Positions 5,375-32,397 of a stretch of 32,397 nucleotides of DNA are shown here, piece by piece. The stretch is from a virus. Within the stretch, counting starts at the first letter, position 1, and each line of letters starts with the position of its first letter. The DNA is taken from the IMG/VR virus record IMGVR_UViG_3300025159_000223, positions 1 to 32,397 of that record; one strand, written 5' to 3'. The position numbers and the translations under genes were made by a program. The notes below the pieces were generated by a model. The model had not been told where the DNA came from and ran no database searches. It worked only from the letters and a program-made list of their open reading frames with translations.

Positions 5375-7768
5375 GTGAAACGTAAAACGCAAACAGTTAC
5401 ACGCACTCATCTCAACCGCACTATCAAAGCTCTCCGCACTGATGCAGAGAAACGCGTGAAGGCTGCCTACTGGTCAGGTATGCAAGATGCTGAAGACGAG
5501 CCGCCCGTGACAGCGGGCGGTATCACCTATCAGCGCCGAGGCTATCGCAGTCGCATTACGATTCGAGACGAAACGCCGACGAGTCAGGAAGCGGCTATTG
5601 AACGCAGCTCTCGTCAATATGCTACCAACCCGTTGGCCTACGCGATTGCCAATACGCGAACAGATTATGTGTGGGGTGATGGCCCAGTCATCACCGCCGA
5701 CAATGATGAGGTGCAAGCCATTCTCGACGCGCACTGGTACGACGACACGAACGACTGGGAAGGCAAAGGCGCGCAGCGCGTGCGTGATCTAGGGCTGTAC
5801 GGTGAGTTATTCATCGAGGCATTCGTACGCTGGGATGGTGTTGTAGGTGATGGACAAGTCCGACTCGGTGCGATTGATTCTGCCGAGATCGATCGGATTA
5901 TCACGGATGCGGATAACCGCGAAGAGATCGTCGCTGTTCAGCTCAAGGCTGTAGCAAACGAGCCACAACAGCGCGGGCGATTGCTCAAGGTCATCTGCAT
6001 CGATCCCGAAACAGGACGATTGCATGGCATCAAATCGACTGAATTTGCAGTGAGTCACAGCTACGCAGCGGATGATGTGATCACACGATCGCGACGGCAT
6101 TGGCGAATCGCCGAGGCGAATCGTCAAACAGATAAATTTGATTCGGGTTGGGAGAATGCACGTGCCACTGAGACGTGCTACGGTCGCGCTTGGCGTGTCA
6201 GTGAAGCGCACGGTGGCATGATGTATCAGGATCGCGTCGGTGCAGAGATCGAGGGCGTGCCATATGATGGCCAATGTTTCATTGTGCAAGTGAACAAAAC
6301 GAGCATCGGTATGCGCGGCCGGCCGGATGGTCTTGCACTCATCGATTGGTTGGATCGCACTGATCAACTCTTCTTTGACATTCTTGAACACGCGGCGCTG
6401 CTGAAGGACACCGTGTGGGACTTGCTGGTCAATGGAGCAGATGAGAAAGAATTGGATAAGCAAGACAAGAAGTTCCGTGCCTCATCATCTCAAGCGGGTC
6501 GCGTCTTCGCACACAACGAATCGATCGTCCTCACGGATCGCAATCCCGATCTCAAAGCTGCCGATTGGTCATCACTATACGACACGATTCTAAACTTCCT
6601 TGCGGGCGGCGCGCGTCTGCCGGTTTATATGCTCGGCTCAGGCGGTGATGCAAATCTGGCAACAGCCACAGCACAAGGCAGCCCAACCTATCGCGGTTTC
6701 GAGACGCGGCAAGGCGTGGTACGCCGGCTGCTGATTCGCATTCTACAATACCAAGTTGACTGTGCAGTAGAGGCGAAGCGCATCCCGGAAGAAGTTGAAA
6801 TACTGGATGAGAACGGTGAGCCGAAACTAGATCGCCTCGGTCTGCCGATGCGCGTTCTTGCGCGCGACTGCTTCGATGTGCAGATGCCGGAGATCAGTCC
6901 GCGCGATACGGTGGCAGCAGCAACCACGTTCTCGGCAGTGGCAACAGCAGTCACAGGTCTGTACTCGATGAAGTTGCTACCGTTGCAGACAGCCGTCGAG
7001 TTGGAAGCGCGTGCGGCTGAGCTGCTCGGTGTCGAGATCGAGATCGATAAAGTCGTCGCGGCATTGCAAACCGGCCCGGACACATCAGGCCTAGCTGATG
7101 CGCTGGACAAAGCGCAGCCAGGTGGCAACGGACAGCAGCCAAGCGCCGATCTATCTTCGTTGCTGGCGGTGATGAATCAAGGCGCGCGGCAAGAATCGAA
7201 AGGGAATGATGGGCAGATCATCGAGATGCGAGTGACACATCTCGATGAAGGACGAGCAACTGAGGATAATTCCATGCTATCTATGCAGCAGTTCTATGCT
7301 TTGATGCACGAGCTTGAATCAATTCGATTGGCACAGGATACTAGACGATCAAGTGAATCCTTGCCTGCGCCGATTATCAATATGTCTCTCAATCCCGCAG
7401 AGATGACGCTTGCAAAGACTCTCAATCTGCCTGCGCCGGTCGTGAACGTCGAAGTGCCTGTGGGCGATCTGGCCAACGCATTAGAACGCGTCATTGAATC
7501 GAGCAACCAATCGAGCAATGCTCAACTCACCAGGATGGTTGAGCTTTTGAGTCGAATCAATGAAGCAGCACAACCCAGTGATGTTCAACCTGTCATCAAT
7601 ATCACTGTGCCGGAACAATCGCCACCCGTTATACTCAATACAATCAACGTACCTCAACAGCCGCCGCCAATTGTGACAGTAGAAGTGCCAGAACAGAAGC
7701 CTGTCACGAAGCGAGTGATCCGTGATCGACAAGGTTTGATCACGGAAGTCAAAGAAGAGCCTGAATAA
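5375..7768 (+). CDS. Portal protein with long C-terminal extension
   Basis: The GTG at 5375 is preferred because GAGGAT lies six bases upstream and the terminase stop is at 5370-5372. The 797-residue product forms the dodecameric head vertex through which DNA is packed. Its N-terminal two thirds have portal-like features: 'YATNPLAYAIANTRTDYVWG', 'AQRVRDLGLYGELFIEAFVR' and a helical 'LDRTDQLFFDILEHAALLKD' segment. After about residue 560 comes a long extension with Gln/Ser-rich linkers and repeated 'PVxNVxVP' type strands ('PAPVVNVEVPV', 'PPPIVTVEVPE') ending in 'RVIRDRQGLITEVKEE'. Such endings occur in virion proteins that contact capsid or scaffold. The extension is more A/T-rich than the core. 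Confidence 0.85.
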   Translation: MKRKTQTVTRTHLNRTIKALRTDAEKRVKAAYWSGMQDAEDEPPVTAGGITYQRRGYRSRITIRDETPTSQEAAIERSSRQYATNPLAYAIANTRTDYVWGDGPVITADNDEVQAILDAHWYDDTNDWEGKGAQRVRDLGLYGELFIEAFVRWDGVVGDGQVRLGAIDSAEIDRIITDADNREEIVAVQLKAVANEPQQRGRLLKVICIDPETGRLHGIKSTEFAVSHSYAADDVITRSRRHWRIAEANRQTDKFDSGWENARATETCYGRAWRVSEAHGGMMYQDRVGAEIEGVPYDGQCFIVQVNKTSIGMRGRPDGLALIDWLDRTDQLFFDILEHAALLKDTVWDLLVNGADEKELDKQDKKFRASSSQAGRVFAHNESIVLTDRNPDLKAADWSSLYDTILNFLAGGARLPVYMLGSGGDANLATATAQGSPTYRGFETRQGVVRRLLIRILQYQVDCAVEAKRIPEEVEILDENGEPKLDRLGLPMRVLARDCFDVQMPEISPRDTVAAATTFSAVATAVTGLYSMKLLPLQTAVELEARAAELLGVEIEIDKVVAALQTGPDTSGLADALDKAQPGGNGQQPSADLSSLLAVMNQGARQESKGNDGQIIEMRVTHLDEGRATEDNSMLSMQQFYALMHELESIRLAQDTRRSSESLPAPIINMSLNPAEMTLAKTLNLPAPVVNVEVPVGDLANALERVIESSNQSSNAQLTRMVELLSRINEAAQPSDVQPVINITVPEQSPPVILNTINVPQQPPPIVTVEVPEQKPVTKRVIRDRQGLITEVKEEPE

Positions 7769-17509: not shown

Positions 17510-18115
17510 ATGGCACTTAGCGAGCTGACCCTAGCAATGCTGACACTGGCAGGCTATTTTCAACCTGATCAGTCCGTGGCAGGACAGGAACACAAATATA
17601 GCAGCGTCATGGCCGATTTGCTGAGACCGATTTCTTATCGCATTGCAGATTGGGGACAATACCATGTTCCCGACATGGAGCTTTATCGAAAACTCGACGA
17701 CTCATCGCTCGGACGGCAATATAAGATTTATGTCACGGTAAAATATGGATTGCACACAAACAATCCATTGGACATTCTGCATCTTATCCAGAACGAGCGA
17801 GTTGCTTCATTCTTGATTCGTTTAGGTGAGGTGAATATCTTCGACGAATCACCGGAATATGATGTAGTCATGATCGAATGTTCCGGCGAGGGTCTGATTG
17901 CACTCAATGGACTGGTCTCAAGCTCGCTCATCAATTCTGACACATATCCTGAGTATCATCCGCATGCAACAATAGCCCACGTCAAAAAAGGCATGGGACG
18001 GGCACACATTGGAGCGATGGAATTTAACGGCCTCGAAGCTCAGATTGATAGTCTGATGTTTTCAGCACAAGATGGTCGGCAGACAGCTATTCCACTTTAT
18101 GGAGTTGAACTGTGA
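17510..18115 (+). CDS. 2H phosphoesterase-like protein with altered first motif
   Basis: A 201-residue protein with the second 2H (LigT/2'-5' RNA ligase-like) motif intact: 'YPEYHPHATIAHVKKG', His152-x-Thr154. The place of the first motif reads 'YKIYVTVKYGLHT': Tyr74-Val-Thr76, so the expected catalytic His is Tyr. 2H enzymes act on cyclic phosphates or 2'-5' linkages; phage members include the anti-CBASS nuclease Acb1, though I cannot place this one there. The gene is visibly richer in A/T than its neighbours and is inserted between two neck genes, as expected for an acquired moron. The stop overlaps the next start. One missing histidine suggests binding instead of catalysis, or an atypical mechanism. 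Confidence 0.75.
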   Translation: MALSELTLAMLTLAGYFQPDQSVAGQEHKYSSVMADLLRPISYRIADWGQYHVPDMELYRKLDDSSLGRQYKIYVTVKYGLHTNNPLDILHLIQNERVASFLIRLGEVNIFDESPEYDVVMIECSGEGLIALNGLVSSSLINSDTYPEYHPHATIAHVKKGMGRAHIGAMEFNGLEAQIDSLMFSAQDGRQTAIPLYGVEL

Positions 18116-23146: not shown

Positions 23147-23479
23147 ATGAGCATGCAAATCGATGGAAACAACCTGCCGCGTGATCCGTACGACGTGCGT
23201 TGGGAGCCGAAAGAAGTCATCGACCGCGCGCACAGCGGCAAGCCGTTGCGCAACGCGTATCGACGCGTGGTACTGATGTTCGACGATCTCACACCAGCGG
23301 ACTTCAACACGATCGCGGCGTACGATGATGGCGGTGCACACACCGTCACGATCCCCCACCCCACCACCGCCGCATACACCGCGTATGCAGGCGCGTACTT
23401 CCGTGTCTCGCGACCGCACTCGTTTCAGGACATTCACACTGAGGATATCGAATTCGAGGTCAGTTGGGTGGTGGCATGA
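23147..23479 (+). CDS. Distal tail/tail tip protein, small
   Basis: A 110-residue protein starting four bases after the tape measure stop (ATG 23147; 23153 is possible). 'LMFDDLTPADFNTIAAYDDG' and 'YFRVSRPHSFQDIHTEDIEF' with 'EVSWVV' fit the small beta-barrel proteins that begin the tail tip in many siphophages. The stop overlaps the next start (ATGA), so the ratio with the tail tip hub gene may be fixed by coupling. Confidence 0.65.
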   Translation: MSMQIDGNNLPRDPYDVRWEPKEVIDRAHSGKPLRNAYRRVVLMFDDLTPADFNTIAAYDDGGAHTVTIPHPTTAAYTAYAGAYFRVSRPHSFQDIHTEDIEFEVSWVVA

Positions 23480-26400
23480 GAACCGCGCTCACTGCCGACG
23501 AACTGACCTTGTTGAGAAGTGAGATTCACGGCACGCGGCTCTATCTCGGTGTGCACAAGCCGGCCAGCATTTTCACCGCACGGGTAGCTGGCGCCGTCTC
23601 TTATCCCCTCTATCAAATTGCCTTCGATGGCGGCAGCCCAGCATCCGGCTCGATCATCAAGAGTGGGATGACGCTATGGATCGGTTCGGCGGCTGGCCTG
23701 CGCGACAAGGGTCAGATGCGCGTGCGCGGCGATCAGACGGCAGCGGCTACAGGCAACCTTGCGGTATCCGAACTCGGCAACTATGCGATCGATATCGACG
23801 ACAATGACTATTTGACAGTGGTCGAGGATTACCGCATCGCCGCGAAGTTTCCGCGCTATTCGGGTGGCGCGTGGAAGATGGATTACGACATCGCGTTCAC
23901 TGCAAGCGGATCGGGTAACAATGTTAAGCCGAATCAGGAGTATGGGCCACTCGCACGCATCGGCCCGGCAGCAGTGGGATTCTTGGAGTCTAACCTATGT
24001 CGCCTGCGCTACGTTGGCGAGCGCAGCGCAGCATATAGTCCGAGCAACTCAATCAGCGTCTACGCGTGGACATTCCCCGGCACAGCGAATCCAGCGACTT
24101 CGGCAGTGCAAGGCACAAGCGCATCGCCAATCGTGATCGACTACTCGGCAGCCATCCCCGCTGGACGCTATCACGATCTGATGATCACTGAGAATACAAC
24201 GCTAAAAACGCATGTGGGTCGTCGGCTGACATTCATCTTCGAGCGCAGCGGCGCAAACGCGCCGTTCGACGCCGAACTCGTCAGCTCGATCAGCGGCGGC
24301 CCTGATCAAGGCGGGTACACGACAACTGTACGTGTGATCAATACGACATCCGATCAAACATCATTCCCCGATGGTGCGCACATCGTATTGTTTGAGGAAG
24401 CATTGTATGCCGATGATGCAGGCAGCGGCAACATCGACCGCTACTTCTACATCACTGATGCAAGTGGTGCATTCACGATCGGCGAGACAGTTACGGGCGG
24501 CACATCTGGTGCAACGGGTACAGTCATCTCGGCTTCTAGCACGCTGATCAAGATTCGCACCACGAAGGCATTTCACACGCAAGAGATTGTCACGGGTGGC
24601 ACGAGCGGCGCAACGGCGCGCCTGCGCAGCGCCAGCGTCGGCGGCAATTATCCACACCGGACGAATGTTGTGCTTGAAGGCTGGATCGTCGATGAGACGG
24701 TACGCAAGGACCCCGAAACGGGTGACATCGAGTTTGAGGTCGTGACCGTCGATGGTGTCATGCGCGGTGAGGAATCGTATCCGGTGGCACTCACGAATCG
24801 CACCAACACGGCCAAGCTCGTCTCGTGGGAGGACTTCTATCAGTTGACGCTCGACCGTGTGCTATTGCATTTCGCCAAGTGGCGCTCGACGATCAGTGAA
24901 GTTGTGGATGTGACGCTGCATGGTGATCTGGTTGCCAGTTCACCGGCCGGCGCTGAGATCGTGAAGTATTGTGATATGGATCAAGGAAACTTGTTCGACC
25001 AGATCAGCACTTGGTATGTGCAAACGATGCTCGGATGGATAACTAGTGATTTGCAATCGGGACTGTACGGTGAGTTGGATGCGCAGATCGATGATACTGT
25101 GCGCGCTGGCATCCCAACTGCTTGGACGGTGGCATCCGGTGATCGCGCTGGCACGCTAGAGATCGGTCGGCGTGCTCATCGCAAGCTCAACTCTCAAGTG
25201 ACGCTGTACGGTGTGGACTATCGCACACCACTGGGCAGCCGATCACCGGATGATCCGCACGATTACGAGGGTGGACTTGAAGAGATCACTGAAGGCATCG
25301 CCTCACCCGATCAAGCCACACTGAGCTTGTGGGCGGGCAACCTACGAGCCAAACGGAACAACGTATATCCGAGCGTCGATCATCGCTGGATGGGCTATTG
25401 GCGAATCGATGCTGTGCCGCAGTCATACATCGTCGAGTCGCTCGGTGCATCGGATACGATCCGCGGATTCGTGTGGTCGAGTTTCAAGCTGATTCCGCGC
25501 ACGTTGGGCTTGGAGTATCGCGGCGGGATGCTGCTTGCTTCATCCGATTGCGAGGGGCAAACGCAAGGTCTCGGTGGTGCAGCGATCACGTTTCCGCCGG
25601 TGTCCGATCCGCCTGATCCGATCTCGCCGCCACCGATTGAGCCGGGCAAACCGCCCGGCTGGATTAGTGATGCGAGTGAGATCGTGTTCATCGCGTGGAC
25701 AACCGATATCGGTGCGGCACAACATCTATTCTGGTCAGGCGACTTCTTCGCCGGTGGGCAGCCGACGTACATCGAGGTTGCGAAACCAGCGAGTTCCGGC
25801 ACGCTGAGCCGCGCGCAAGCATTGCGCGATGGCTCACTGGCATTCGTCCAGAACAGTGCGAAGAACATTTGGCAGACGGCGAACATCGGCGTCGCCTCAC
25901 CCACTTGGTCGGCGATCTTGACTATGGGATCAACTGCATGTCTCGGTGGCAATGTCGCCAGCGCCAGCTATATGCGAATTATTGGCCTCGCGTTATACGT
26001 ATCAGGTACAACGAGCAACAGCAAATATTTTCATGGCAAGTGGGACGGCAGCACGTGGACATTCACCGAGGTGCTGCACTTTGAGTCGATGGATTTGGAT
26101 GAAGGGCCATTTCATAGCCATTATTTTGCCTATCAGACCACGCCGATCAAGCTGCGCGAGGCGACAATCACGGGAACAGTCATCGATACCTACAATAGCG
26201 TGACATTGAATCACTCTGCGTGGCGCAGACATGATGCCATCAGTGCGATAGCGATTAAGCGCATCGCGGCAGATCTTCTTGGCAATTGGTTCATCCGCAA
26301 CATGATGACAGCAACGAATATCTTCACGACAGTTGTTCCGAATGGATCACTGTTAAAGGGTGCATTGTATGGCGATCAACTCTGCTTCCCGGATGGCAAT

Positions 26401-26658
26401 GGCGTAGCACGTGTGGCTGACGATGGCGTGACCTTTGCCGCGCGCTCGACCTGGCAACCGGGCACGATTCTACCGGCGCAGGTGCGCGGCGGAGATACGC
26501 TGGTGTGGCTTGTGAAGCAGACTGCCATAGCTAATGTGTTCGCACGCATCAGCGATGACGGATTCGCTACGGCGGGCACAGACATGAGCGGCAACTTTTG
26601 GACTGAGCTATACTCAAGCCAGTTCAATCTGGCTGATGTATGCTTGATCTTCAGGTGA
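23476..26658 (+). CDS. Large tail tip/baseplate protein
   Basis: The ATG at 23476 overlaps the previous stop. The 1060-residue product has a beta-rich N-terminus with 'LYLGVHKPASIFTARVAGAV', a domain near residues 326-391 with two copies of 'TGGTSGATxx' ('GETVTGGTSGATGTVISA', 'EIVTGGTSGATARLRSA'), a central part resembling tail hub proteins ('MDQGNLFDQISTWYVQTMLG'), a Pro-rich hinge ('PPVSDPPDPISPPPIEPG') and a beta-propeller-like C-terminal half with repeated Trp/Asp strands. Size and position after the distal tail protein fit a tail hub fused to a receptor-binding or host-surface domain. Domain names are inference. Confidence 0.7.
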   Translation: MRTALTADELTLLRSEIHGTRLYLGVHKPASIFTARVAGAVSYPLYQIAFDGGSPASGSIIKSGMTLWIGSAAGLRDKGQMRVRGDQTAAATGNLAVSELGNYAIDIDDNDYLTVVEDYRIAAKFPRYSGGAWKMDYDIAFTASGSGNNVKPNQEYGPLARIGPAAVGFLESNLCRLRYVGERSAAYSPSNSISVYAWTFPGTANPATSAVQGTSASPIVIDYSAAIPAGRYHDLMITENTTLKTHVGRRLTFIFERSGANAPFDAELVSSISGGPDQGGYTTTVRVINTTSDQTSFPDGAHIVLFEEALYADDAGSGNIDRYFYITDASGAFTIGETVTGGTSGATGTVISASSTLIKIRTTKAFHTQEIVTGGTSGATARLRSASVGGNYPHRTNVVLEGWIVDETVRKDPETGDIEFEVVTVDGVMRGEESYPVALTNRTNTAKLVSWEDFYQLTLDRVLLHFAKWRSTISEVVDVTLHGDLVASSPAGAEIVKYCDMDQGNLFDQISTWYVQTMLGWITSDLQSGLYGELDAQIDDTVRAGIPTAWTVASGDRAGTLEIGRRAHRKLNSQVTLYGVDYRTPLGSRSPDDPHDYEGGLEEITEGIASPDQATLSLWAGNLRAKRNNVYPSVDHRWMGYWRIDAVPQSYIVESLGASDTIRGFVWSSFKLIPRTLGLEYRGGMLLASSDCEGQTQGLGGAAITFPPVSDPPDPISPPPIEPGKPPGWISDASEIVFIAWTTDIGAAQHLFWSGDFFAGGQPTYIEVAKPASSGTLSRAQALRDGSLAFVQNSAKNIWQTANIGVASPTWSAILTMGSTACLGGNVASASYMRIIGLALYVSGTTSNSKYFHGKWDGSTWTFTEVLHFESMDLDEGPFHSHYFAYQTTPIKLREATITGTVIDTYNSVTLNHSAWRRHDAISAIAIKRIAADLLGNWFIRNMMTATNIFTTVVPNGSLLKGALYGDQLCFPDGNGVARVADDGVTFAARSTWQPGTILPAQVRGGDTLVWLVKQTAIANVFARISDDGFATAGTDMSGNFWTELYSSQFNLADVCLIFR

Positions 26659-26663
26659 TCGAG

Positions 26664-28955
26664 ATGACATCGCTCAAGCAGCTTCAACAGCAGTTCAACA
26701 GCATTCAGAGTGTGCGGCAACCGGTGCGCAAGAAGTTTCAGGCGCTCATCGGCCACCCAGACGGATCAACTATCGATGATCCCGAACATGCAGGTTACGT
26801 CTTCATTCGCATCGACGGCGATAGCAACCGTGTGCGGCATGCACGCTGCCGTGCTGTTCTGCCGCGCTACAATCAGCCGGTGATCGTCGCATACTCGGAT
26901 GAACGACCCGGTACGCTGGAGGTTATTGATCTCAATGATGAGGCGTTTCCGCCGAACGCAGCAGGCACGGACACGAGCTATGACGGCTCGGCGCAGCTCG
27001 GCAAACACGCGGCTCAGCATGCGATGTTCGGCGGCGACACGACTTGGATCGATCTCAAGCAGATCGTGCCACTACGCACGCGGCCCGATAACCCTGTCTC
27101 GATGCAGGTGTACGTCGAATCCGGGCCATATCAATATCTCAATGGCTATAACTACTGGCCAGGCGGGTTGAGCAGCGACATGACAGCGCAAATTCCATCG
27201 AGTGCGCTCACGCAAATCTATCGCATCATTTACATCAATCCGACAACAAACGCATTGGCCTACATCAATAGTGCCGAGATGGCCGATGATCCTTACATGG
27301 CAAACTATGAAGGCATCCTCGATCTGATCCCGGTAACGAGTGTGCCATTGTCTGCCGTGCGGTTGCACAATGGAATGACGACTATCACTGAGACCGACAT
27401 CTATGATCTGCGCGCGATCATTGGATCGGCTCCGGGCACGGTGTCAGGATCGGGTGCGATCGCGCTGTGGTCGAACGTGCTGATCGTTGCAGGATCAGGT
27501 GGCGATTACACGACGATCCAGGCGGCGATCAATGCGGCGTCGAGTGGACAACTCGTTTTAGTCGCACCGGGTACGTATGCAGAGAACGATACTCTCAAAG
27601 ACGGTGTTGCAGTGAAATCGTTGGGCGTGTCTTTGGATACGATCATTGCTCCGGCGTCAGGCGTATCTGTAGCTGTGCCTGCCGGATCACATCGATTGCA
27701 TGGATTTCATTTGACGCCACCGGCAGGTCAAGTCGCGCTCAGTATCATCGGAGCCACCGGTGATCTTGAGGTCTTCAAGTGCTTCGTTGGCTCCAACGGG
27801 ACGAATGCCATTGATACATCAACGGCAGGAGCAGCCTTCGTCCTCACGCTAAGCGATTCGGCTATCGACGGCTCGATCAGTACGAAGGCTCAGATCAAGG
27901 CATTCGATTGCGAAATCACGGGCAATATTGCTCAAGTAGCCGGTGCAGGCGACATTATCCTACATGGCGGAAAGGTGCAGGGAAATATCACTCATGTCGC
28001 CGGTGCGACGATTTATATGCGCAATCTGCCAACCATTACAGGAACAGTCAGCGGAACGGGAACAGTCGTCGGTCCCTACCGCGATGGAAGCGGTAATGTC
28101 GTGATGCAGACTGGGTCGATCCTGACCATTGGGATTCTGAATCTGTCTGCCACCTCCAGTCAAATTGTGATGCAGTCAGCGGGCATCACGGGCACGCTGA
28201 CCTGGACCCCGGCCACGTCGGACAAGGTGATCACGCTGCCCAACCTCACTGGCACGCTGGCACTCGGCGCGGGCACACTCACGGTAGCAACAGCTAATAG
28301 TGTGGCGGTGGCTGATCACACGCATGCCATCACGTCCTCGTCGAGCCCCGGCGCGGCGGCGGCGATCCTGGCGAGCACGGCGGCAGGCTATCTACAATTG
28401 GCGCGGTTGGGGATAGGCATATCTCCAGGAAGTCCCATTCATGTCGGGGATGGAACGGCATTGCATTCAAGCATCGAATTGGGATCAGTCGACGTCCAGG
28501 CGTGGACGTGGAGTACGACGACCATTGGATTGAAGGGGATCGTCGCTTCCAGTGTAGCAGCAGGTAGAGCAACCTATTTTCTCGGCCAACGCGCACGCGG
28601 CACACTCGATGCTCCATCTATCGTGAGTGACAACGACCTAATGTTTGTGCTGCTAGGTTCTGGATACGATGGCGCTGCTATGATTGCATCAGCGGAGATT
28701 GTGTTTGCAGTGGACGGCACTCCTGGCATAAATGACATGCCGGGGCGTATCTCGTTTTTCACGACGCCGGATGGGTCGGCGACATTCTCAGAGCGAGTCC
28801 GCATTACAGCAGATGGCGGATTGGGAATCGTAGACGGTATCGCCGCGCCCGCCACATTATCAGGTTTTGCAAAAATCTATGTAGATAGTGCTGATGGGGA
28901 TTTGAAAGTCAAATTCGGCGATGGTATAGTCAAGACTATCGTCGTCGATACGTAG
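26664..28955 (+). CDS. Tail fibre/spike with pectate lyase-like beta-helix
   Basis: ATG 26664 has AGGTGA six bases upstream and follows the previous stop by five bases. The 763-residue protein begins with a baseplate attachment region to about residue 130, then 'LLNGYNYWP'-type fibre sequence, and from about residue 274 'GSGGDYTTIQAAINAASSGQ' and 'LVLVAPGTYAEN', a hallmark of right-handed parallel beta-helix (pectin lyase-fold) proteins, running to about 460. The C-terminal part has fibre repeats ('VADHTHAITSSS', 'ARLGIGISPGSPIHVGDG', 'ERVRITADGGLGI'). It should be the host-recognition spike and may hydrolyse surface polysaccharide; no catalytic residues are assigned. Confidence 0.8.
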   Translation: MTSLKQLQQQFNSIQSVRQPVRKKFQALIGHPDGSTIDDPEHAGYVFIRIDGDSNRVRHARCRAVLPRYNQPVIVAYSDERPGTLEVIDLNDEAFPPNAAGTDTSYDGSAQLGKHAAQHAMFGGDTTWIDLKQIVPLRTRPDNPVSMQVYVESGPYQYLNGYNYWPGGLSSDMTAQIPSSALTQIYRIIYINPTTNALAYINSAEMADDPYMANYEGILDLIPVTSVPLSAVRLHNGMTTITETDIYDLRAIIGSAPGTVSGSGAIALWSNVLIVAGSGGDYTTIQAAINAASSGQLVLVAPGTYAENDTLKDGVAVKSLGVSLDTIIAPASGVSVAVPAGSHRLHGFHLTPPAGQVALSIIGATGDLEVFKCFVGSNGTNAIDTSTAGAAFVLTLSDSAIDGSISTKAQIKAFDCEITGNIAQVAGAGDIILHGGKVQGNITHVAGATIYMRNLPTITGTVSGTGTVVGPYRDGSGNVVMQTGSILTIGILNLSATSSQIVMQSAGITGTLTWTPATSDKVITLPNLTGTLALGAGTLTVATANSVAVADHTHAITSSSSPGAAAAILASTAAGYLQLARLGIGISPGSPIHVGDGTALHSSIELGSVDVQAWTWSTTTIGLKGIVASSVAAGRATYFLGQRARGTLDAPSIVSDNDLMFVLLGSGYDGAAMIASAEIVFAVDGTPGINDMPGRISFFTTPDGSATFSERVRITADGGLGIVDGIAAPATLSGFAKIYVDSADGDLKVKFGDGIVKTIVVDT

Positions 28956-28966
28956 GAGTGGTTTCA

Positions 28967-29191
28967 ATGGACGATGTCATACCCGAAGTTAAACGTGCAG
29001 TGATCGAGCAAGAATCAGCCATGTGGAGAAACACGCGGTATCAGCTTCAACTGCGCCACCGCGTCAACAAAGCACTGGGAGCGGCGGATGTACTTGTGCA
29101 GATTGAGAAGGAGTTGGAGAAGTGTGAGAAGGCATTGGATGTGCTGGATGTCGTACTATCTGAACTGCGAAACGGCGAAGTGACCCCGTGA
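28967..29191 (+). CDS. Small coiled-coil protein, unknown
   Basis: ATG 28967 has AGGAG eight bases upstream, better than the in-frame GTG 28958. The 74-residue product is helical: an N-terminal helix, then 'AADVLVQIEKELEKCEKALD' with heptad spacing and 'VLDVVLSELRNGEV'. It lies between the spike gene and a cationic microprotein, in the region where many phages carry lysis or fibre-chaperone genes. No family is recognised. Confidence 0.6.
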   Translation: MDDVIPEVKRAVIEQESAMWRNTRYQLQLRHRVNKALGAADVLVQIEKELEKCEKALDVLDVVLSELRNGEVTP

Positions 29192-29265
29192 TCCGGTTTC
29201 TCGTCTGGTCGCTCTATAACCGATTTGTCAACTGGTTGCTGCGGCACATGAGACCGATTCGCTAA
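29188..29265 (+). CDS. 25-residue cationic amphipathic microprotein
   Basis: A GTG overlaps the previous stop (GTGA) and the TAA overlaps the next ATG (TAATG), so 25 codons are tiled exactly between two genes. The peptide starts MIRFLVWSLYNRF and contains five Arg, one His and two Trp, with an amphipathic pattern like membrane-active peptides. It resembles the microprotein at 3148-3231 (MIRYLVG). Both might be membrane-active helpers of lysis or coupling peptides. Only the exact tiling and composition support it. Confidence 0.4.
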   Translation: MIRFLVWSLYNRFVNWLLRHMRPIR

Positions 29266-29726
29266 TGAACAATCCAGAGCCCGAGATCTGTACCAGCTGC
29301 CAACGTGTGATCTATCTTGAGCAGCAGATGCGCGTCGCGCAGGCGCGTCTCAAGGTTATCATCGAGAATGTCTCGTGCGGTGTGATGATGCTTGATGCAC
29401 AGGCCAACATTCTGTACGCGAATCGCTATGTGATCGAGGCGCTCGGCTATGTGTTGCCAGAGATCATCGGGCGCAGCGCGTTCGACTTCACGCATCCAGA
29501 GGAAACACGCCTGCGGCGCGCATTGTTTGGCAAGACGCTAATACAACCGGGGCAATTAAGAGATCGAGGCTACGCGCGGTTCAAGAGCAAGCGCGGGGTG
29601 TGGGTGTTGTTCGGGGTCCGCGTGCTCAACCTAATCGACGACCCGAACGTCGGCGTGATCATTGCATTCGTCAACGATGAATCGGCGCAGATGAGCCGCT
29701 ATCTCAGCAATGGCAACGATGAATAA
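29265..29726 (+). CDS. Stand-alone PAS-domain protein
   Basis: A 153-residue protein. Residues 5-16 contain a CxxC (Cys9, Cys12); residues 18-30 are a short helix; from about 31 to 140 there is a PAS fold: 'VIIENVSCGVMMLDAQANIL' and 'YANRYVIEALGYVLPEIIGR' and 'SAFDFTHPEE', the usual helix-strand order and the conserved N and G-E-IIG pattern of this sensor domain. No histidine kinase, GGDEF or other output domain follows. PAS domains sense redox, light or ligands and mediate dimer formation. Its place among late and lysis-like genes suggests a role in timing or host signalling, but this is inference. It overlaps the next gene by 17 bases. Confidence 0.85.
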   Translation: MNNPEPEICTSCQRVIYLEQQMRVAQARLKVIIENVSCGVMMLDAQANILYANRYVIEALGYVLPEIIGRSAFDFTHPEETRLRRALFGKTLIQPGQLRDRGYARFKSKRGVWVLFGVRVLNLIDDPNVGVIIAFVNDESAQMSRYLSNGNDE

Positions 29727-30096
29727 GCCGATCGATGGCTGGCTGGAGCTGGTGCGATGGATCGATGGCATCCGTGCTGAGCAGGCGCAGACGCGTGAGG
29801 TGATCCACGCGCATCAAGAGCGATTCGATGACTTCGAGAACGAGGTGAGTTCCAGCTTGCACCTGTTCAAGAACGAGATGCAGGCGCAGATGAAATACTT
29901 CGGTCGCAATGTCGAGGAACTCTCGCAGAAGATCGCGATCCACACCGAGAGCCACAAGCTGCGCGATCGCGAGAGCGAAGCACGCTTAGCACTGATGCAG
30001 CAGAGCAAGATCGATCTGTGGAAAGTCGTTCTTGTCGCGGTGATTACGACGGTCGGATCAATCGGGGTTGCACTGATTACGGGTCTTCTGAAATGA
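29710..30096 (+). CDS. Coiled-coil protein with C-terminal membrane anchor, holin-like (XhlA-type)
   Basis: ATG 29710 (29719 possible) lies in the end of the PAS gene. The 128-residue protein is helical and charged ('EQAQTREVIHAHQERFDDFE', 'FKNEMQAQMKYFGRNVEELS') and ends with one transmembrane helix at about residues 104-126 ('LWKVVLVAVITTVGSIGVAL'). Coiled coil plus C-terminal membrane anchor is the architecture of XhlA-like lysis proteins and of many small phage proteins at the end of the late operon. This position supports a lysis role; no endolysin is seen beside it on the plus strand. Its last 39 bases overlap a minus-strand gene. Confidence 0.65.
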   Translation: MATMNKPIDGWLELVRWIDGIRAEQAQTREVIHAHQERFDDFENEVSSSLHLFKNEMQAQMKYFGRNVEELSQKIAIHTESHKLRDRESEARLALMQQSKIDLWKVVLVAVITTVGSIGVALITGLLK

Positions 30097-30273
30097 TACC
30101 GATGATACCGATGATACGCGATGAGATGTGGATTTACGTCTTAACTTGTTGAGCTTGGTCACCTTGAACTTTGTATTTCGGCAATACGCGTGTAATGCCA
30201 GTGCGATATTGTCTGGATTCAACCAGTTTTGATCTTGGGGTTGATCCCATTCGATTTTAACAATTGTTTTCAT
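30058..30273 (-). CDS. Small conserved-looking hypothetical protein
   Basis: Starts at ATG 30271-30273 with a strong GGGAAGAGAG ribosome-binding site and overlaps the stop of the preceding lipoprotein gene by four bases. The 71-residue product begins 'MKTIVKIEWDQPQDQNWLNP' and continues 'DNIALALHAYCRNTKFKVTK', a pattern I associate with small phage or mobile-element proteins of unknown function ('WLN-DNIALAL-AYC-NT-F-V'). The basic, Ser-rich tail runs 39 bases into the oppositely oriented gene at 29710-30096, so the tail may be a recent read-through extension. Confidence 0.65.
   Translation of the reverse strand: MKTIVKIEWDQPQDQNWLNPDNIALALHAYCRNTKFKVTKLNKLRRKSTSHRVSSVSSVSFQKTRNQCNPD
30093..30119 (+). 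repeat. Three ATGATACCG/ATGATACGC nonamers at the convergence point
   Basis: ATGATACCG is repeated twice and a third copy reads ATGATACGC, starting at the end of the last plus-strand gene and lying within the 3' end of the converging minus-strand gene, where it encodes a Ser/Val-rich tail. No intrinsic terminator is visible in this region from either side. Confidence 0.7.
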
Positions 30274-31277
30274 GTCTCTCTTCCCATTGTGATGAATGGC
30301 AGATAAATGCGATACGGTAGCAGTGGTACCAAGCTGATGATATAGTCTGCGAGTGCAGGCAACGCCTCTTGAAAGTTCGCGCGCTGATAATTGCCCAGCG
30401 TCCACATCGCAGCACCCACGATATATCCATCCTCAGCGAGTTGAAGATCGTACCACCCCACGTCGTCAATGAAGGGTTGAACACCGATGAACTCGAAGCC
30501 GGCTGATTGGCCAGCCTCACTGATGATCAGTCTCGGTCGTGCATCGGCTGGCAGCATTGCATAGAGTTGTCGATAGCGCAGCGCGAGATACGATCCGCGC
30601 AACGTATCGGGATTGCCTGCCCCTACCCCACCGTACTCATGCAGCGAGAGATAGTGTCCATGCGCAGCGGCGTATTGCAGCGCGGGAGCGATCTCATTGA
30701 TCGTCGCGCTATCGAGTGGTGGGTTGCCTGTGCTGAATGCGTACAGTGCAAGCGTGAAGCTGTCGCGGTCGGCGAGCTTCATGATCTCGATGAAGAACTC
30801 GCTCTGCCAACCCCAATCCGATGAGAACTCGTTGAACGTCTCCCATACGTCCACCTGCGAATTGAACGTCCACGTTGGCAGTACGAGACTGTAGTACGTT
30901 TTAGCAGCAGCGCGTGCTGATGGGAAATCACTCGGTTTGAATGCCTGTAGATCGTAACTGACACCGGTGATCGGATCGCGGATCGAGTTCAGTCGGCCAA
31001 CGGTCAACGCGCTCGGCATATACAGCTTGACCTCATGCAGCGGTGACAGATCATCGATCGCCTTCACGACTGATAGCTGAATGCCTTCACTAGCGAGTCG
31101 CATCAGGAACAGACCGAAGCCGGTGCGCCGACCGGGGACAATGTGCAAGCCGATCTTACTCGTGATGCGCTGGATGATCATGGGTGTCGCGATCGGTGAG
31201 ATCGGGCTGCGCGTGGGGGTCGGGCCGATGCAAGCAACAAGAAGCAACGCGATGACCATCTTACCGAATGTCTTCAT
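30270..31277 (-). CDS. Lipoprotein glycoside hydrolase, clan GH-A-like
   Basis: The start at 31277 has AAGGT nine bases upstream and gives a lipoprotein signal 'MKTFGKMVIALLLVACIG' with Cys16 as the lipidation site. The 335-residue protein has TIM-barrel features of clan GH-A glycosidases: 'DVWETFNEFSSDW' with the Asn149-Glu150 pair of strand 4 (acid/base), 'YLSLHEYGG' (His213, Glu214), 'RLIISEAGQSAGF' with Glu254 as nucleophile candidate, and 'GAAMWTLGN' with Trp292. It would sit on the outer side of the host membrane. The end 'PYRIYLPFI' resembles C-terminal tags of secreted Chloroflexota proteins. A lysin acting on cell wall glycan, or a surface polysaccharide hydrolase for superinfection control, are both possible. 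Confidence 0.75.
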   Translation of the reverse strand: MKTFGKMVIALLLVACIGPTPTRSPISPIATPMIIQRITSKIGLHIVPGRRTGFGLFLMRLASEGIQLSVVKAIDDLSPLHEVKLYMPSALTVGRLNSIRDPITGVSYDLQAFKPSDFPSARAAAKTYYSLVLPTWTFNSQVDVWETFNEFSSDWGWQSEFFIEIMKLADRDSFTLALYAFSTGNPPLDSATINEIAPALQYAAAHGHYLSLHEYGGVGAGNPDTLRGSYLALRYRQLYAMLPADARPRLIISEAGQSAGFEFIGVQPFIDDVGWYDLQLAEDGYIVGAAMWTLGNYQRANFQEALPALADYIISLVPLLPYRIYLPFITMGRET

Positions 31278-31895: not shown

Positions 31896-32102
31896 TCAAT
31901 AGCCTCCGACTGTCTCGTTCTCGACGACTCGCACAGCAAGTGCTACTCTCGGCATGCGTTGAACATCGCCTGCATCGAGTTCAAACGATGCACCGACCGC
32001 GATGAGACACTCGATCCAATCGGGTCGCGCCTGTGCTAATGCAACAAGAACGCCTGCAATGTTCTTGCGAAAATACGGTCTAGAGTCCCGATGGTCCAAC
32101 AT
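31896..32102 (-). CDS. Small hypothetical protein (68 residues)
   Basis: ATG at 32100-32102 has a GAGGAG ribosome-binding site about five bases upstream. The product begins 'MLDHRDSRPYFRKNIAGVLV' and 'ALAQARPDWIECLIAVGASF', which resembles a compact alpha/beta fold. The frame is open further upstream but the ribosome-binding site decides this start. The family is not recognised. It lies three bases before the DUF2786-like gene and overlaps the upstream gene by 23 bases. Confidence 0.6.
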   Translation of the reverse strand: MLDHRDSRPYFRKNIAGVLVALAQARPDWIECLIAVGASFELDAGDVQRMPRVALAVRVVENETVGGY

Positions 32103-32397
32103 CGATCTCCTCTCGATTGCGAATCTTCCAGGCGAGCACGGCAACCGGCATATCGGCGATGCGCTGGTAGGTGCGTGGCTTCGATGTACATTGTTTGTGC
32201 TGCCGATGCACCTTGCCGCACTTTGCACAGACCTGAAGCGTAACGTAGATCGGTAATCCGAGTGCGTGCCGAATGTGCGATGATCTCGGTTCATAGCCTT
32301 GTGAGATGCGGATCAACGTGCCTGCTGATAGACCCACCTCACGTCCTACAGCACGCCATGATCCCAATTCGCGCTTGAGCCTCAGAATGCGTTTCTG
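32080..32397 (-). CDS. Helix-turn-helix protein with zinc-like cluster (5' truncated)
   Basis: The frame enters from beyond the right edge of the window and ends at 32080. The visible 105 residues begin with a basic helix ('KRILRLKRELGSWRAVGREV') followed by 'GLSAGTLIRISQGYEP', a helix-turn-helix of the phage repressor/transposase type, and then 'LQVCAKCGKVHRQHKQC' with CxxC and H-x-x-H-x-x-C spacing that could bind zinc. Such a small DNA-binding protein is often the first gene of a regulatory operon. It might control the minus-strand operon or the operators at 660-860, which is speculation. Confidence 0.65.
   Translation of the reverse strand, partial: QKRILRLKRELGSWRAVGREVGLSAGTLIRISQGYEPRSSHIRHALGLPIYVTLQVCAKCGKVHRQHKQCTSKPRTYQRIADMPVAVLAWKIRNREEIDVGPSGL

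Follow-up and report, generated by a model that had tools for sequence, protein, structure and literature searches.

A single-domain PAS protein of a bacterial virus, coupled to a membrane protein and placed in a distant relative within a lysis cassette

The window, i.e., the whole stretch of 32,397 nucleotides analysed here (IMG/VR record IMGVR_UViG_3300025159_000223), encodes on its plus strand a stand-alone PAS (S-box) protein of 153 amino acids (29265-29726, ATG start). This protein and the membrane protein encoded next to it, which we call ccTM, belong to a lysis cassette, the full arrangement of which is shown in one contig, that of the relative L021 (IMGVR_UViG_3300025167_000281). That the PAS gene is kept beside a membrane-protein gene and, in one relative, among genes for cell-wall-cutting enzymes suggests that a sensor helps to control when the host bursts. 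We hypothesize that a cytosolic, probably dimeric PAS module works with ccTM in this host-exit cassette and tunes lysis, a reading to which we give an even chance.

The product of 29265-29726 is confirmed as a single PAS domain without an output domain, in line with the original prediction. It exceeds the curated Pfam cut-offs of PF00989 (E 3e-9, 37.3 bits vs. 22.6), PF13188 (32.4 bits vs. 21.8), and PF13426 (30.2 bits vs. 27), and the NCBIfam profile sensory_box (TIGR00229) matches residues 26-138 (1.1e-11, 44.9 bits vs. 22.9). The profiles nearest to it describe PAS domains found in sensor kinases (PnpS, AtoS, and MASE3 kinases). The chain consists of a CxxC-RV motif (residues 9-15), an N-cap helix (residues ~10-34), the PAS core (37-139), and a short C-terminal tail (140-153), with the CxxC lying in the helix of residues 1-27. 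An AlphaFold model built from an alignment of five natural sequences has a mean pLDDT of 63, reaching 73-89 in most core blocks, and its elements follow the PAS order b-b-a-a-a-b-b-b (E39-44, E48-52, H54-60, H64-67, H82-88, E100-107, E113-121, E129-136). Compared with solved PAS domains, the model gave E-values down to 6e-7 in Foldseek and Z-scores up to 13.9 in VIA-align (residues 37-139, rmsd 1.9 Å over 97 residues); modelling had been proposed as a check on the PAS assignment, and the model is that of a PAS domain. Apart from PAS, Pfam and NCBIfam recognised no domain in the protein, be it a kinase, a cyclase, an HTH or any other. It thus shares the full fold of the PAS/S-box family (PF00989, TIGR00229), and differs from it in being a single domain without kinase, cyclase or DNA-binding output and in carrying the extra N-terminal CxxC-RV. 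A canonical LOV photosensor (flavin-cysteine, GxNCRFLQ) was ruled out, as the corresponding stretch GRSAFDFTHPEET, read by eye, has no Cys. No cofactor-specific residue pattern of the heme or FAD type was identified in the sequence; the HP at residues 77-78 is conserved, and it does not indicate heme binding because HP is a motif common in PAS domains. PADLOC gave no match for the PAS protein.

The N-terminal CxxC pointed out before this analysis (C9, C12) is present and is part of the motif E-x-C-x-x-C-x-R-V, invariant in 6/6 sequences, even in L021, which is only 32% identical overall. In L021, the motif is located in the linker that joins two PAS domains. The window protein therefore looks like the second half, linker and PAS2, of such a double-PAS protein, and the motif may be a structural one serving a metal-bridged dimer rather than a redox switch. 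Since each chain has only two Cys, at the foot of the helix, a PAS dimer bridged by a metal or a disulfide through the CxxC pairs is an attractive idea. Redox sensing through the putative CxxC switch is possible.

Full-length relatives of the PAS protein are encoded in four other IMG/VR sequences, L002 (79% identity), L006 (78%), L008 (78%; L007 has the same region), and L011 (63%), and the relatives are a small set, i.e., these four close records besides the window and one distant one, L021. The dN/dS ratio of 0.08-0.16, obtained for pairs where dS could be estimated, indicates that the PAS gene is under purifying selection, and together with the full-length homologs in four further sequences it means that the ORF is no chance reading frame. 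A search of 50,697 deposited phage genomes with the PAS protein, the double-PAS protein of L021, and the hydrolase-like proteins described below gave no matches. BFVD contains other short, likewise stand-alone PAS proteins of uncultured Caudovirales (A0A6J5KZZ3, A0A6J5QVN9, A0A6J5NY05; 169-205 aa; Foldseek 2.5e-4 to 2.9e-2), which are only 12-14% identical to the window PAS and were compared as proteins alone. Phage PAS proteins are therefore rare, not unknown. A genome-collection scan yielded nothing more than a partial match to the PAS (50 residues) in Shimia, which was not taken as a relative. The nearest terminases, ~42% identical, come from phages with mixed hosts, and no tRNA was found in the window; the YLPxI motif at the C-terminus of the hydrolase-like protein leads us to suspect that the host may belong to Chloroflexota. 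The right-end genes of the window (31896-32397) and of L006 (10580-11093) encode proteins with 98-100% identity, whereas the PAS proteins of the two are only 77% identical, which suggests that sequences were exchanged recently by recombination, with the cassette and the right-end genes on either side of the breakpoint.

The gene of ccTM (29719-30096, plus strand) encodes 125 amino acids, a polar, probably coiled-coil part of ~100 residues followed by a C-terminal membrane helix (~103-121), the one clear TM predicted. Its start ATG lies inside the stop region of the PAS gene, giving an 8-nt overlap, ATGAATAA, and the same overlap with the pattern ATGnnTRA is found in 5/5 contigs where both genes are readable; in L021, the two genes are separated by 3 nt. 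To judge by this arrangement, PAS and ccTM are translationally coupled in five contigs. The original prediction of a holin-like gene downstream of PAS holds insofar as the ORF has one C-terminal TM; as a family assignment it was a weak impression, since the best PHROG holin scores, over partial stretches only, are E 0.08-0.17, and the profile libraries gave no match to a holin, antiholin or XhlA family. XhlA-type haemolysin or holin accessories are lysis proteins with a coiled coil and a C-terminal TM. The layout of ccTM, with polar N-terminal helices, one C-terminal membrane helix, and a place in a lysis locus, is like theirs, a likeness of layout only, and ccTM differs from them in having no holin or XhlA family match and in being paired with a PAS protein.

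The link with lysis comes from L021, which was retrieved by a search with the hydrolase-like alignment. In this contig, an ORF with three TM-like segments, the double-PAS gene, ccTM, an M23 endolysin gene, a gene for a 25-aa micropeptide, and the hydrolase-like gene follow each other in the same direction. The first ORF (102 aa) has a holin-like layout and scores only E 0.07 with Pfam holins. The double-PAS protein has 264-266 aa, and its second PAS domain and the window PAS are homologs (33% identity, tblastn E 2e-23, z 36 vs. shuffles), as are the ccTM proteins of L021 and of the window (27%, E 9e-12, z 16 vs. shuffles). The M23 peptidase (PF01551 7e-21; PHROG endolysin 2e-16), which adjoins ccTM, is of the kind that tailed phages have in their M23 endolysin cassettes (PF01551; PHROG 3578), and the hydrolase-like protein is 49% identical to that of the window. 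This gene run with an endolysin and a 3-TM ORF places PAS and ccTM in a lysis cassette. Of the enzyme and holin-like genes of this run, only the hydrolase-like gene, on the opposite strand, adjoins PAS and ccTM in the window. In another contig, L022, an M23 peptidase gene precedes the hydrolase-like gene within one run and no PAS or ccTM gene is detectable, thus PAS is not essential to such cassettes. The earlier proposal that the PAS protein times lysis is upheld as regards the association with lysis, i.e., the PAS/ccTM coupling in five contigs and the endolysin, micropeptide, hydrolase-like, and 3-TM genes of L021; the timing itself belongs to the model discussed below. The left end of L021 (1-1400), beside the cassette, contains a transposase-like ORF on the minus strand and an apparent fragment of a short-chain dehydrogenase gene; an IS element that inserted at the edge of a prophage, or a join made during assembly, would explain this.

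The hydrolase-like lipoprotein gene of the window (30270-31277, minus strand) is convergent with the PAS/ccTM pair and encodes a signal peptide with a lipobox-like LLVAC; its start was set at the in-frame ATG at 31277, and the open frame extends to 31379. Neither Pfam, PHROG nor NCBIfam gave a family match. In W-E-x-x-N-E and I-S-E, two Glu do not vary among six sequences with identities as low as 46%, and the AlphaFold model is TIM-barrel-like at low confidence (pLDDT 56). Glycosidases of clan GH-A have a TIM barrel with an acid/base Glu, which follows an Asn, and a nucleophile Glu, and the arrangement of the conserved Glu recalls this clan. The family occurs with a lipoprotein signal peptide in the window group vs. 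a C-terminal TM and an Arg-rich tail in L021, and its genes in L021 (3780-4778) and L022 (6475-7611) are found near M23 endolysins. Possibly, these proteins are undescribed cell-wall or surface-glycan hydrolases.

Just upstream of the PAS gene, as the original prediction had described, lie a fibre gene and microprotein genes, namely a tail fibre-like gene (26640-28955, plus strand; PHROG tail fibre 4e-12), a small charged ORF of 77 aa (28958-29191, plus strand), and, sharing a GTGA overlap with the latter and adjoining PAS, a 25-codon ORF (29188-29265, plus strand). This ORF encodes the 25-aa cationic micropeptide V/M-IRFLVWSLYNRFVNWLLRHMRPIR (charge +5), which also occurs in L006 (7927-8001), L011 (7204-7278), and L021 (3706-3780). 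The micropeptides are cationic, contain Trp, have the consensus MIRFLLWSLYMRFVNWLLRHMRPIR, and keep 52-88% identity, with 52% in L021. The gene precedes PAS in the window and in L006 and directly precedes the hydrolase-like gene in L021; it is thus likely to be a true small gene with a variable position. In L002 and L008, its frame is broken (frameshifted or partly deleted), so that it is dispensable there or the sequences contain errors. The micropeptide is possibly membrane-active. We make no claim of an amphipathic design, as the amphipathic moment exceeded that of shuffles only in L011 (3%), the other three tested being at 13-27%. In L011, an extra ORF of 81 aa with a Cys-rich end (VSCGREVTRICISDRCEKP) lies between micropeptide and PAS (7298-7543). 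Around the cassette, predicted sigma-70 promoters and terminators showed no clear excess over shuffles.

In the window and four relatives, PAS immediately follows tail genes, which could mean that the PAS fold serves as an assembly or adhesion module of the virion behind the fibre gene. We regard this as quite improbable. In tblastn, the proteins encoded by the tail genes of the window (23464-28955) did not match the PAS-keeping, cassette-carrying loci, which have other tail genes; the tail fibre-like gene was not found in these relatives and the 77-aa ORF had no match in those examined. The PAS-ccTM-hydrolase block is thus kept beside different tail genes, which argues against PAS as a fibre or tail component, and, as far as gene order can tell, PAS is not a fibre-module gene. 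Moreover, the L021 cassette is preceded by the holin-like and transposase-like ORFs, not by tail genes, and the folds closest to the model are signalling PAS domains. Within the head-tail genes of the window, 17510-18115 has a weak 2'-5' RNA ligase-like (2H phosphoesterase) match just under the cut-off (PF13563 2e-5), which is unusual at such a location and could represent an anti-defence 2H phosphodiesterase. Conservation bears on a further reading, a recently captured fragment of a host gene carried as cargo without selected function. PAS domains abound in bacteria (present in 12/14 control genomes), but the low dN/dS, the 8-nt overlap conserved across five contigs, and the CxxC-RV motif that is invariant even at 32% identity largely refute this explanation, which we consider very improbable.

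Two readings leave the protein a function outside lysis. The lone PAS domain might act as a decoy in host signalling, which the original prediction had raised for host PAS kinases. It would dimerise with PAS domains in the histidine kinases, diguanylate cyclases or phosphodiesterases of the host, whose signalling would then be blocked late in infection. PAS domains dimerise readily, the protein has no output domain, and its closest profiles are those of sensor kinases. We nevertheless find this unlikely, as the PAS protein is coupled to a phage-specific membrane protein and not free-standing, as L021 has two PAS domains beside an endolysin, and as such proteins are usually early, whereas the window PAS stands at the end of the late genes. 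Alternatively, PAS and ccTM could form a lysogenic-conversion or membrane-stress pair acting in lysogens or infected cells, e.g., in superinfection exclusion jointly with the hydrolase-like lipoprotein at the surface. The lipoprotein gene, on the minus strand immediately after the late genes, lies where genes with this role are typically found, and PADLOC gave a weak match of ccTM to LeoC (E 5e-4). The LeoC match, however, spans a generic coiled-coil/TM region, the ORFs examined in the window and L006 include no recognisable integrase or repressor, and L021 has all the genes in one run with its M23 endolysin; this reading is rather unlikely.

Among functional precedents for a phage-encoded PAS sensor, VqmA of vibriophage VP882 comes closest. 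This quorum-sensing receptor sets off lysis through transcription, by means of its HTH DNA-binding domain (PMC8284805). Like the window protein, VqmA is a phage PAS protein tied to host killing, and it shows that a PAS receptor can feed lysis control. It differs in its HTH domain and in deciding between lysogeny and lysis by transcription, whereas the window PAS has no such domain and is encoded as a pair with a membrane protein. While stand-alone phage PAS proteins and the receptor VqmA are already known, the open-licence literature searched yielded no account of a lysis operon or M23 cassette that contains a PAS gene.

In the model that we favour, in which PAS and ccTM tune lysis, PAS dimers would form via the N-terminal helix and would possibly be clamped by their two CxxC pairs as Zn(Cys)4 or a disulfide. 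The coiled-coil part of ccTM, on the cytosolic side, would be the binding site of the dimer, and a host signal, i.e., a ligand, redox or energy state, would make PAS hold or release ccTM, the release leading to membrane permeabilisation and the discharge of the cell-wall hydrolase or hydrolases at the right time. We infer the PAS-ccTM contact, the dimerisation, the signal, the cofactor, and the effect on lysis timing. Several points speak against the model: the hydrolase-like protein has a signal peptide and so need not depend on a holin, its gene in the window is on the opposite strand, ccTM has no holin or antiholin match, no cofactor pattern was identified in the PAS protein, L022 does with no detectable PAS or ccTM, and the full lysis arrangement comes from L021 alone. 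A narrower version, a two-component lysis timer in which cytosolic PAS gates the coupled ccTM and lysis is set at the level of proteins, by a metabolite or the redox state of the host, and not by transcription or an intrinsic holin clock, is tentative and in our view somewhat doubtful. Holin clocks are generally regarded as intrinsic; apart from a few antiholin systems, no case is known to us in which the time of lysis is controlled from outside.

If the model is true, a PAS sensor coupled to a membrane protein in a lysis cassette would be a direct and testable case of a phage sensing the state of its host to time lysis. Sensory domains could then be lysis genes, and PAS genes on viral contigs should therefore not be dismissed as captured host cargo.
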